The notes under the pieces were generated by a model. The model was not told the origin of the DNA and made no database searches. It saw only the letters and a program-made list of their open reading frames with translations. A DNA stretch of 27,547 nucleotides from a virus: positions 1 to 27,547 of the IMG/VR virus record IMGVR_UViG_3300024518_004362; one strand, written 5' to 3'. The translations under genes were made by a program, and so were the position numbers. Within the stretch, counting starts at the first letter, position 1, and each line of letters opens with the position of its first letter. This document shows positions 935-8,328 of this stretch, piece by piece.

Positions 935-1444
935 ATGGAATTAGCTAAAATCATAACAAAAGAAGATAATCCAAGATTTATAACAGATGAAAAATTAGAA
1001 AGTCTAAAAAGGTCCATTAAGTCGTTTGAAAAAATGATGGAATTAAGACCTATGGTAATAGATGAAAACAACATCTTGTTAGGTGGCAATATGCGTCATA
1101 GAGCCTTAACCGAACTTGGGTACAAAGATGTACCTCCCTCATGGATTAAGCAAGTCAAAGGGCTTACAGATGATGAAAAAAAAGAATTTATAATCAAGGA
1201 CAATGTAGGGTTTGGGGAATGGGATTGGGACATTCTGAATAATGACTGGGAAACCGTGTCTTTATTAGACTGGGGGTTAGATGTTGTTTCTTTTGTAGAC
1301 ACACCAAAAGAGGTTAGAGATTTGAGCCCACATTTGAATGTTGAGTATAAAATTATGATAACGGTAGATTCCGAATCCGACCAAGAGGAATTATATGATG
1401 AATTAATCAAAAGACAATACAGATGCCAAATTTCGACTTTGTAA
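935..1444 (+). CDS. ParB/Srx-like domain protein
   Basis: A 169-residue protein. Residues 1-70 look like a ParB/sulfiredoxin-fold domain: LAKIITKEDNPRFI at the N-terminus, then RPMVIDENNILLGGNMRHRA (residues 38-57), which holds the GG..RHRA nucleotide-binding motif. In ParB relatives this domain binds CTP or ATP and sometimes acts as a nuclease. Residues 85-115 (IKDNVGFGEWDWDIL, LLDWGLD) are typical of phage ParB-like proteins found with DNA methylases and modification enzymes. The C-terminus (VDSESDQEELYDELIKRQY) looks like a small alpha/beta add-on. No helix-turn-helix of plasmid-partition ParB is seen, so partition is unlikely. It overlaps the ATPase gene by 22 bases, so a shared function in DNA modification is inferred. 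Confidence 0.82.
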   Translation: MELAKIITKEDNPRFITDEKLESLKRSIKSFEKMMELRPMVIDENNILLGGNMRHRALTELGYKDVPPSWIKQVKGLTDDEKKEFIIKDNVGFGEWDWDILNNDWETVSLLDWGLDVVSFVDTPKEVRDLSPHLNVEYKIMITVDSESDQEELYDELIKRQYRCQISTL

Positions 1445-2124
1445 AATCAACCGACGTAAAAAACACCTTTAGAGTGAAATCCATAAAAGGAACTTTTGAT
1501 ATTGATAAGGATAAAGTAAGTCATGTATTTAAAGGGAATTTAGACATTGAAGATAAGGAATGGAACATAGGTGTAATTGTAGGGAGCTCGGGTACGGGAA
1601 AAACTTCTATAGCAAAGCAATGTTTTGGCGAATTTGACATCCATAAATATTCCAGTGGAGCAATAATTGATGATATGCCCAAGACCTCTTCGGTAAACGA
1701 TATTGCCAAGATGTTTAACAGTGTTGGTTTCGGTAGCCCCGTGTCTTGGTTGAAACCATATAATGTATTAAGTAATGGGGAAAAAATGCGAGTAGATTTG
1801 GCTCGGAGTTTAATGTCGGAAAAGGAGATTATTTTATTCGATGAATATACAAGCGTGGTGGATAGAGATGTAGCTAAGATTGGTTCTTATGCTACCCAAA
1901 AAGCGATCAGAAAAAAAGGAAAAAAGTTTATTGCCGTATCTTGTCATTTTGATATTGTCGAATGGTTAGAACCCGACTGGATTTATAACACCGACGAGGA
2001 ACGGTTTTTTTTTGTCCGAAAGAATACAAAAGACCAAAAATTGATTTACAGATATTCCACATTGTCAATAACTCAAGCGAGAAGCAAAGAATTTGGAATG
2101 CCCTTGGGAAATATCATTATTTAA
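1423..2124 (+). CDS. ABC-type ATPase, N-terminal part of ABC-GNAT protein
   Basis: This 233-residue frame encodes a complete soluble ABC ATPase domain: Walker A GSSGTGKT (54-61), signature LSNGE (116-120), Walker B IILFDE (136-141), D-loop SVVD (144-147) and switch His175. There are no membrane segments and no permease gene, so it is not a transporter. In phages and actinobacteria, as I recall, this ATPase type is often fused to a Mom-like GNAT domain. Here the GNAT lies directly after it in the -1 frame, and the switch can occur at nine T (2005-2013, codons F195-F197). After a -1 shift the product would be 368 aa. The unshifted tail, VRKNTKDQ to GNIII, looks non-homologous. The start overlaps the ParB-like gene. 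Confidence 0.85.
   Translation: MPNFDFVKSTDVKNTFRVKSIKGTFDIDKDKVSHVFKGNLDIEDKEWNIGVIVGSSGTGKTSIAKQCFGEFDIHKYSSGAIIDDMPKTSSVNDIAKMFNSVGFGSPVSWLKPYNVLSNGEKMRVDLARSLMSEKEIILFDEYTSVVDRDVAKIGSYATQKAIRKKGKKFIAVSCHFDIVEWLEPDWIYNTDEERFFFVRKNTKDQKLIYRYSTLSITQARSKEFGMPLGNIII
2005..2013 (+). other. nine-T slippery run joining ATPase and GNAT frames
   Basis: Nine T in a row cover three in-frame TTT codons of the ATPase. T TTT TTT is a perfect -1 slippery heptamer. A -1 shift (or one extra T in the RNA) leads into a frame open from 1989 to 2528 that encodes the rest of the GNAT. A homopolymer miscall (9 for 10) would look the same. Confidence 0.7.
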
Positions 2125-2156
2125 GTGATACTTTTAATAAGGCGGCAGGAATTTTT

Positions 2157-2528
2157 GTGATTTATGATGATAATGATATTCCGATTGCGATGTTTAGTTA
2201 TTTGCATTTTCCTCACCCGAAATCCAAGAATATAAAAATGGGACATAGGACGGTGATCAATCCTAATTATCAAGGGATCGGAATTGGGAATAGGTTAATT
2301 GAGTTTGGAGCAAAGGATTTACTGAAAAAAGGGTTCAGATATTTAGCCACTACCTCTAGCCCTTCGATAATAGCATATAGAAAGCAAAGTGATAAATGGA
2401 AATGCACCAGAAAGGGATATATTGGAAAGTTGGGAAAGACTTCAAAAATAGCAATGGCTAAATCCTCAAGTCGATACACAACCTCATGGGAATTTATAAA
2501 TAACAACAATGAAAACAAAGAAAGCTAA
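2157..2528 (+). CDS. Mom-like GNAT acetyltransferase (N-terminus lies upstream in same frame)
   Basis: The frame shows the GNAT acetyl-CoA loop: HRTVINPNYQGIGIGNRLIE fits motif A with Q-G-I-G-I-G. The end, SSRYTTSWEFI, resembles the C-terminus of the Mom-like family, whose Mu member converts adenine to a carbamoylmethyl (acetamido) form to block restriction. GTG 2157 is the first usable start, but the same frame is open back to 1989. It encodes RPKIDLQIF and then WNALGKYHYLSDTFNKAAG (about 2088-2144), a recognisable family N-terminus that includes HYLS. No ATG, GTG or TTG occurs between 1989 and 2157, so this part is made only by shifting from the ATPase frame at 2005-2013. A short stand-alone product from GTG would lack it. 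DNA modification is inferred from family and context. Confidence 0.75.
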   Translation: MIYDDNDIPIAMFSYLHFPHPKSKNIKMGHRTVINPNYQGIGIGNRLIEFGAKDLLKKGFRYLATTSSPSIIAYRKQSDKWKCTRKGYIGKLGKTSKIAMAKSSSRYTTSWEFINNNNENKES

Positions 2529-3180
2529 CAAGATAATTGGAGCCATAGATTCAGATAAATTCTATATAGTTACGGCAGATGATAAAATAAAGAACATCTT
2601 ACCTTTGCCTATAATAACTTTAAGTTCTGGAACTTGTCATATCAATCCAAAAAATGACATAATTGCAGCACATGGAATTAATGCATTGAGTGTAGCCGAA
2701 TATGTAATCGAAAATATACTCTTTTTATTAAAACAAAGAAAAGGGCATAACAGATCATTCAGTGGCTTTAATCTTAATGAGTACACGTTCTGTCTAATAG
2801 GGTACGGAAGTATCAACAGAAGGCTTGAAAACATACTTAAAGCGTTTGATTGCAGGGTGGTAGTAGTGCAAAAAGTTACAGATCAGAAATTTATGTTTGA
2901 AAAGAAGGATATTTTAATTCTTGGATGCGCTCTAAATAAAGACACAAAGGATTTCCATAAGCGAATAATAACCAACCCTCATATGGTTGTGAATATTTCA
3001 AGGGATGAAGTGTTTCCAATAATGGAATTGAGAAAAACGGGTTGCTTGATCATTAGTGATAATTCTAAATTTGTAAGCAAAACAAAAAAACAAGTTCTAA
3101 CCAATCATATTGCAGGGCGAACCAAGACAGTAAAAAAGCAATTAAAAAAACATGTTAAAAAAATTATTGAATCGGAATAA
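2509..3180 (+). CDS. D-2-hydroxyacid dehydrogenase-like Rossmann protein
   Basis: A 223-residue protein with the order of motifs of D-isomer-specific 2-hydroxyacid dehydrogenases. Residues 58-75 (NALSVAEYVIENILFLLK) match the helix before the NAD domain; 97-105 (IGYGSINRR) is the NAD-binding glycine loop; 134-142 (DILILGCAL) and 160-165 (VVNISR) match later strands; TNHIAG (198-203) carries the catalytic His. Catalytic Arg165 and His200 are present, but the usual acidic residue (a D..E.EP segment) between them is missing, and the protein is about 100 residues shorter than typical 310-330 aa enzymes. It may have altered chemistry, or bind NAD without classic dehydrogenase activity. It overlaps the GNAT gene by 20 bases, so it probably belongs to the modification cassette. 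Such a gene is unusual in a phage. Confidence 0.75.
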   Translation: MKTKKANKIIGAIDSDKFYIVTADDKIKNILPLPIITLSSGTCHINPKNDIIAAHGINALSVAEYVIENILFLLKQRKGHNRSFSGFNLNEYTFCLIGYGSINRRLENILKAFDCRVVVVQKVTDQKFMFEKKDILILGCALNKDTKDFHKRIITNPHMVVNISRDEVFPIMELRKTGCLIISDNSKFVSKTKKQVLTNHIAGRTKTVKKQLKKHVKKIIESE

Positions 3181-7660: not shown

Positions 7661-8158
7661 ATGAAAAAATCAATAGTAGATTGGGAGAATAGAATGATAC
7701 ACGGTAAGAGTGGTAAAATATATCACATAGCCCCTGAAAAAATTGCATCAAAATTGTGGGCACAGTATCAAATTAGGGGATCACTTTTAGGACTCAATAC
7801 TTCATTGGAATCTATACTACTTAGAATCAAGGGCGCTATCGACCATTTAAGGACGGGAGAGGAGAACGCTCAAGGGAATGCATCCAACGCAATAATAGAA
7901 TTGGAGAGCATCAAAAAAGGATTTAAAGATTTCAAGGATAATGAGTACAATGCAGTATTGGAATTTCTATCTATATTTTGCAAGTCAGAAGGGGAGCCAA
8001 TGGATAAAAATGATGAATCTATAATCCGTAGAAAATATGAAGATTGGTCAGAAATTCCACAGGCAGACCTTTTTTTTTTATCTCAAATGTCAATACCATC
8101 GTACAGCAAGCACTTAAAGGAGCAAACGGCGAGCGAGAAGTTGATAAAAAGCGAGTAA
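7661..8158 (+). CDS. probable tail assembly chaperone, upstream (G-like) frame
   Basis: A 165-residue, mostly helical protein (residues 45-110 helical, DHLRTGEENAQGNASNAIIE, IKKGFKDFKDNEYNAVLEFL). Near its end, ten T at 8070-8079 followed by A form T TTT TTA, a classical -1 slippery heptamer, inside EIPQADLFFL. A -1 shift there enters a frame open to 8328. A G/GT-type tail assembly chaperone pair, in which a short G and a longer GT product are made by -1 shift, fits this arrangement in long-tailed phages. The unshifted form ends 25 residues after the slip. Identity is inferred from architecture; no sequence family is recognised. Confidence 0.55.
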   Translation: MKKSIVDWENRMIHGKSGKIYHIAPEKIASKLWAQYQIRGSLLGLNTSLESILLRIKGAIDHLRTGEENAQGNASNAIIELESIKKGFKDFKDNEYNAVLEFLSIFCKSEGEPMDKNDESIIRRKYEDWSEIPQADLFFLSQMSIPSYSKHLKEQTASEKLIKSE

Positions 8159-8328
8159 TTTACAAACCGTTAACCCATGAGGAATTGGAAGCGGAAAATG
8201 AAAAGATGTTGATGTATGCTAAAATACGATCACAATACAATATAGAGTACATAAATAAAATGCCTATCTTTGAGTTAATTCCCTTAATAAGAATGCTTAA
8301 AGAAATCAAACAAACAAGTAATGGCTAA
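8044..8328 (+). CDS. probable tail assembly chaperone extension (T-like) frame
   Basis: The -1 frame relative to the gene at 7661 stays open from before 8044 to 8328. The only starts are a TTG at 8044 and an ATG at 8206, the latter leaving 40 residues. If reached by slippage at 8070-8080, the shifted product is about 222 aa and adds ISNVNTIVQQALKGANGERE and onward, with a helical, charged C-terminal part (THEELEAENEKMLMYAKIRS, FELIPLIRMLKEIKQ). This is the usual style of a T domain. It overlaps the gene at 8321 by 8 bases. Confidence 0.5.
   Translation: MVRNSTGRPFFFISNVNTIVQQALKGANGEREVDKKRVIYKPLTHEELEAENEKMLMYAKIRSQYNIEYINKMPIFELIPLIRMLKEIKQTSNG
8070..8080 (+). other. ten-T slippery run, -1 frameshift signal
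   Basis: Ten T followed by A include T TTT TTA in the correct phase (TTT 8075-8077, TTA 8078-8080) for -1 slippage. The new frame continues ISNVNTIVQQALK and onward to 8328. No strong downstream stem was seen. Confidence 0.6.

Follow-up and report, generated by a model that had tools for sequence, protein, structure and literature searches.

The ATPase-GNAT locus of an IMG/VR virus record appears to be a single recoded gene from which two proteins are made, both containing the same ABC-ATPase domain and only one carrying a GNAT acetyltransferase. On the comparative sequence evidence set out below we give this reading, in which production of both proteins is inferred, a probability of roughly 0.86. 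The two-frame layout of the gene is conserved across its family, and the second frame is under selection there. We use 'the window' for the whole stretch of DNA analysed, 27,547 bases, and not for the feature alone. The original prediction described a split gene at this one locus, which holds; the spread of the arrangement through a family and the variety of recoding signals found there went unseen in it.

Two reading frames encode one ATPase-GNAT protein

All features of the locus lie on the plus strand. A gene for a ParB-like (ParB/Srx N-terminal) protein occupies positions 935 to 1444 (PHROG 620/940/498 ParB-like, E about 1e-20), and its last 22 nucleotides overlap the start of the ATPase gene. 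The zero-frame ORF (1423 to 2124) encodes 233 amino acids, an ABC-type ATPase with P-loop and signature motif (Pfam ABC_tran, 7.9e-10) followed by an alternative C-terminal tail, and represents the predicted short product. Its ATG at 1423 sets the phase in which a run of nine T (T9, 2005 to 2013), flanked by GG on the 5' side and by G on the 3' side, is read as TTT TTT TTT. The run contains the heptamer T_TTT_TTT and is the candidate recoding site. Downstream of it, positions 2014 to 2124 form a dual-coded linker, which specifies the alternative tail in the zero frame and the start of the GNAT domain (RPKIDLQIF...W..L.KYHYL) in the -1 frame. The zero frame closes at a TAA (2122 to 2124) built from the L and S codons (TTA AGT) of the GNAT motif HYLS. 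The -1 frame, free of stops between 1989 and 2528, would be used from about 2013 and encodes the acetyltransferase half of the long product; its first ATG, GTG or TTG is a GTG at 2157, which lies 3' of the HYL motif (2115 to 2123). The frame boundaries given in the original prediction are thus correct. Standard decoding would give the ATPase with a tail of about 37 residues, and a shift at T9 would give an ATPase-GNAT protein of about 368 residues, the length computed from the window when a -1 shift joins the two frames.

The earlier claim that the ATPase and GNAT are one protein, interrupted by a -1 frame change at the nine-T run, is borne out by a profile that matches both halves and by relatives that share the switch. 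PHROG 11143 (357 positions) covers the two halves end to end, with positions 6-195 matching the ATPase frame (1e-63) and positions 197-355 matching the GNAT frame (4.9e-22); the latter, with its acetyl-CoA loop, also matches Acetyltransf_1 (5.7e-7). Because the profile aligns across both, the halves are a single protein in other phages, joined at the T run. The -1 sequence upstream of position 2157 is genuine GNAT sequence, as had been proposed, since the PHROG 11143 alignment includes it and a W..F..HYL block upstream of the stop is kept among relatives. In an AlphaFold model of L040, a relative with a single ORF (pLDDT 88), the linker forms a loop that connects the final strand of the ATPase (195-198) to the first of the GNAT (211-215), and hence a shift there would add or omit an entire domain.

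Searches of solved structures and by fold returned generic ABC ATPases only, the fold matches being ABC ATPase domains with nucleotide-bound dimers among them, and a PADLOC run gave weak ATPase matches only. The ATPase part of the window protein is equally near to the T9 and A10 groups of relatives (61-64%), whereas its GNAT part is nearer to the A10 group (up to 48% vs 32-35%), a pattern that exchange at the linker may have produced. The gene that follows the GNAT sequence (2509-3180, plus strand) resembles the NAD-binding half of 2-hydroxyacid dehydrogenases (PF02826, 7e-7) without the full enzyme.

The linker is dual-coded across the family and ends at a fixed stop

We collected 386 sequences from scans that listed at most 80 loci each, so that the locus counts given here are not estimates of prevalence. 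In 309 of these sequences the gene is a single ORF, in 62 it is split by -1 and in four by +1; one carries an in-frame stop and ten are incomplete. Linkers were delimited by two anchors, the W in PDW of the ATPase and the first H in HHYL of the GNAT, and 319 unique linkers were retained from the listed loci (264 from fused genes, 52 from -1 splits and three from +1 splits). The frame that we call GNAT +1 corresponds to the zero frame of the -1 split genes.

This frame has no stop across the linker in any of the 319 unique linkers, including those of the 264 fused genes, and in 317 of them it then meets a stop at an identical nucleotide position within the codons for L and S of HYLS. The remaining alternative frame is open in only 36 of the 319. 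As a null model, codons were swapped for synonyms according to each gene's own usage in 100 representatives of less than 60% identity. Synonymous shuffling predicted 59.2 linker stops in the GNAT +1 frame against none observed, and for the fused genes alone the figures were 46.2 expected and none observed. Elsewhere, six control windows placed in the ATPase and GNAT regions had stop counts near expectation. The fixed stop itself was present in 98 representatives against 45.9 expected, and linkers both open and stopped numbered 98 against 24.7 expected (19 against 25.3 in the -1 control frame). The codon choices around the stop are narrow: the Ser codon after HYL is AGY in 157 cases and TCN in one, and with two exceptions the codon at the L position has A or G as its last base. 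Furthermore, in genes with a Shine-Dalgarno-like stretch and a YTT codon (the SD+YTT class), +1 stops occur in 0 of 1380 codons downstream of the YTT and in 90 of 1860 upstream.

Collectively, the empty linkers, the fixed stop and the contrast on either side of the YTT show that the second frame is under selection from the linker onward. An alternative frame held open by selection and closed by a conserved stop is also the pattern of a dnaX-like gene with two products, and together with the shuffling deficit it suggests that the family makes two products. As originally predicted for the window, this layout has the coding capacity for an ATPase alone and for an ATPase-GNAT protein.

Two listed loci depart from the common pattern. 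In Tenacibaculum phage pT24 (L022, 2474-3649) the ATPase and GNAT share a frame that one TGA interrupts within the GNAT part (3236), which may represent decay, readthrough or error. Streptococcus phage Javan420 (L014, 3576-4063) has a second frame break inside the GNAT sequence, beyond the linker, and this prophage gene looks decayed.

Candidate recoding signals differ between lineages

Among the matches listed, T9 with the same -1 arrangement recurs at the linker of nine other unique contigs, at the window's position in seven of them. The first IMG/VR scan listed relatives with 57-71% identity in the ATPase part; six share the phase TTT TTT TTT and the -1 switch, with overlaps of 121-124 nt, although two of them look like copies of one phage. 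Phages of Lactococcus, Streptococcus, Oenococcus, Enterococcus and Thomasclavelia also have -1 splits, with overlaps of about 100-136 nt, and are mostly annotated as two genes, and isolate genomes of Chryseobacterium and Flavobacterium have A9 with a -1 split. In the listed loci as a whole, long runs at the linker of split genes comprise T9 (10 loci), A9 (18) and a few A10, and those of fused genes comprise A10 (62) and T10 (9); the +1 split genes have A11 and A8 runs. In 61 of the 62 fused A10 genes the -1 frame hits TAG or TAA immediately. Given A9, A10 and A11, and T9 and T10, among related genes, the frame in the DNA varies while both products stay encoded.

Relatives with seven-base runs have the heptamers T_TTT_TTT or A_AAA_AAG, and a GC-rich stem lies 5-8 nt downstream in all five T7 loci (mean z -2.4) and in most A7 loci. 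No notable downstream structure was found in the T9, T10, A9, A10 or SD classes, and the hairpin distinguishes T7 loci (5/5) from T9 loci (0/10; Fisher p = 0.0003).

Fused genes that lack a homopolymer carry an in-frame CTT (148) or GTT (26) in 174 of 191 cases, mostly with GGAGG or GGGGG (GGRGG) ending three nucleotides upstream; for comparison, CTT makes up 13.8% of Leu codons in these genes. These sites resemble the +1 site of prfB (release factor 2), with AGGGGG or GGAGG, a three-nucleotide spacer and CTT. The linker of L162 reads AGG GGG TAT CTT CGG CGA, the first four codons of which we take to be identical to the E. coli prfB site. The family differs from prfB in that the sites are found in relatives and not in the window, that CTT is followed by a sense codon (TGG, CGG, CAA) in the A site and not by UGA or another stop, and that the shifted product would be the short one. 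In L011 and some other relatives the sequence is CTT AGG C, as in the Ty1-type CUU_AGG_C +1 site of yeast (PMC5009743); the setting of these relatives is bacterial, with a Shine-Dalgarno stimulator, and the likeness is probably convergent. Three loci from Bacteroidales/Porphyromonas (L029, L130 and L133) keep the linker CTT without a Shine-Dalgarno-like stretch, which fits the weak use of such sequences in that phylum. A weaker site, GGTTTTTC, is present in some split genes from Gram-positive phages. About an eighth of the unique linkers (42 of 319) fit no strict signal pattern, and many of these still contain a CTT or some other candidate site.

The same pair of products would therefore be reached in other lineages through A9-A11 or T9-T10 runs, through T7 or A7 heptamers with hairpins, or through a prfB-like Shine-Dalgarno sequence with a CTT or GTT +1 site. 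In a tree of 117 representatives the well supported branches alone require at least 10 changes of the SD+YTT label, which implies that the mechanism turned over while the products stayed. We consider it likely that this large, host-diverse family has been under lasting selection for two products from one fixed point, with polymerase slippage, -1 heptamers with hairpins and prfB-like +1 sites with a sense A-site codon repeatedly exchanged. Since the machinery was exchanged and the two products remained constant, it would be their stoichiometry, and not the mechanism, that is conserved.

Probable frame switching at the T9 run of the window

In the window we tend to favour RNA polymerase slippage on T9 as the main route. 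The polymerase would yield mRNAs carrying one additional U, as happens in Thermus dnaX, and the same T9 would permit some ribosomal -1 slippage on U_UUU_UUU, which probably adds to the long product. Runs of nine A or T slip in vivo, and Thermus dnaX uses T9 (PMC5009743). The direction of shifting is kept in ribosomally shifted genes and may vary in genes that use slippage, so that mixed directions among orthologues mark transcriptional realignment (PMC3711429). The window has a run of the required length, and its relatives include A9, A10 and A11 as well as T9 and T10, with splits in both directions, although the loci nearest to the window in layout are all T9. The choice of slippage rests on the T9 class having no hairpin where the T7 class always has one, and on relatives tolerating runs of 9, 10 and 11.

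A purely ribosomal -1 shift at U_UUU_UUU, with no polymerase slippage, is a sub-case of the two-product explanation that we hold possible, though doubtful. The in-phase X_XXY_YYZ heptamer (T_TTT_TTT) is there, correctly phased in the T9 loci; the T7 relatives with their nearby hairpins resemble standard -1 sites, and the split is -1 in each of the ten T9 loci, in line with ribosomal shifting. Downstream stimulators of ribosomal -1 shifting are usual, not obligatory. Against this, the window has no downstream hairpin (z -0.4; T9 class mean z 0.25), nor do the other T9 loci, run lengths concentrate at 9-10, the reported threshold for slippage, and related genes carry runs of 9, 10 and 11 with different default frames. 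Of the three mechanisms originally offered, transcriptional slippage and ribosomal -1 slippage are both plausible.

The third, phase variation, in which slipped-strand mutation of the T run toggles the GNAT half between phage genomes, is disfavoured. Run length does vary by lineage (A8-A11, T9/T10). Nevertheless run length is uniform among the ten T9 loci, and the SD+CTT class, which contains no repeat, still shows the dual frame with its fixed stop; we therefore consider phase variation very unlikely.

Translational coupling of two separate proteins, with the ATPase ending inside HYL and the GNAT restarting there or downstream, is less likely still. The stop often overlaps TTG or CTG (TTGA/CTGA), and annotations of P335 and Oenococcus phages begin the GNAT gene at the stop. 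We ruled this out because the L codon is TTA or CTA, and hence no start codon, in 190 of 319 unique linkers, and because the GNAT strand and W..F..HY block are conserved upstream of the stop. Moreover, the first start codon in the window lies beyond HYL and most relatives are one ORF.

Lower again in probability is a sequencing or assembly error, whereby the real genome would have ten T and a simply fused gene. Homopolymers are prone to such errors and many relatives are single ORFs, but precisely T9 with the same switch occurs in the nine other contigs, the T7 relatives make the same frame change, the A9 splits come from isolate genomes and even fused relatives keep the open second frame with its fixed stop. 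The miscalled homopolymer raised originally as the rival explanation is thus refuted by T9 conservation in independent contigs and by family-wide selection on the second frame. Least probable of all is that the open frame is a functionless by-product of amino-acid and codon constraints, since, even though the stop sits in a motif of restricted codon choice, shuffling each gene's own codons predicts 59 linker stops where there are none and less than half of the fixed stops seen, with control windows fitting expectation.

Elsewhere in the window, ten T (8070-8079) lie in the overlap of two plus-strand ORFs, 7661-8158 and 8044-8328, whose frames differ by -1, and may be a second slippage site in the same phage. 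One IMG/VR scan found no relatives of the ORF at 7661-8158.

Relation to known systems and predicted function

The window protein is the same ATPase-GNAT, end to end, as that of PHROG 11143 and of the ABC ATPase-GNAT system for which Aravind and colleagues predicted an uncharacterised acyl modification of a DNA base (PMC7824862). The part of that article concerned with the system names Tenacibaculum phage pT24, which is also among our relatives, and presents ABC-GNAT as a coupled domain pair, with no mention there of recoding or of a second product. The closest parallel in organisation is bacterial dnaX (tau/gamma), where a single gene gives long and short forms of an ATPase; some of its lineages shift by -1 on the ribosome, others rely on transcriptional slippage at nine T, and which product is the default is reversible (PMC5009743). 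The proteins and the GNAT domain are unrelated to dnaX, and the ATPase-GNAT family differs further in adding prfB-like +1 sites and in a short product whose overlapping tail ends at a fixed stop.

The label 'Mom-like' originally given to the GNAT half is not established, and membership of the Mom family is not supported. The GNAT sequence of the window has no match to Pfam Mom (PF25680) at E 0.1, and the best relative scanned reached 12.7 bits where the cut-off is 27.1. When profiles were compared with seven Mom proteins, a weak match appeared around the HY motif (E 0.006, probability 6%). Mom shares the GNAT fold, with an HY motif early in the domain; its remaining motifs are unmatched in the window protein.

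A ParB-like ORF ends less than 80 nt from the ATPase start in 275 of the 355 listed loci with enough upstream sequence, most commonly with the 22-nt overlap seen in the window (171 loci). Recoding would likely serve to balance ATPase against ATPase-GNAT within an ABC dimer or complex, which, with its ParB-like partner, is predicted to acyl-modify DNA bases. In several phages (L019, L028, L029, L030) the ATPase-GNAT gene is followed by genes annotated as aspartate decarboxylase, phosphoribosylglycinamide formyltransferase or tRNA-methyltransferase. The products of such neighbours might supply or alter the transferred group.

Discussion

The recoding mechanisms considered here are themselves already known. 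In the literature searched we found no account of recoding in the ATPase-GNAT family, although the original ABC-GNAT prediction of 2013 (Iyer et al.) may hold a remark on frames, and no description of a dual-coded linker with a fixed stop or of repeated exchange of the mechanism. If our reading is right, the family would rank with the larger examples of programmed phage recoding that involve neither tail assembly nor transposons. Many ORFs annotated in phages as 'ABC transporters', or as a 'GNAT' on its own, would then be halves of one recoded gene. The family would also provide many native candidate +1 sites with sense codons in the A site. Furthermore, the family would constitute a natural experiment in which one gene with two products has been kept through many changes of mechanism, and would open to experiment the question of why an ATPase predicted to modify DNA needs a form that lacks the acetyltransferase.
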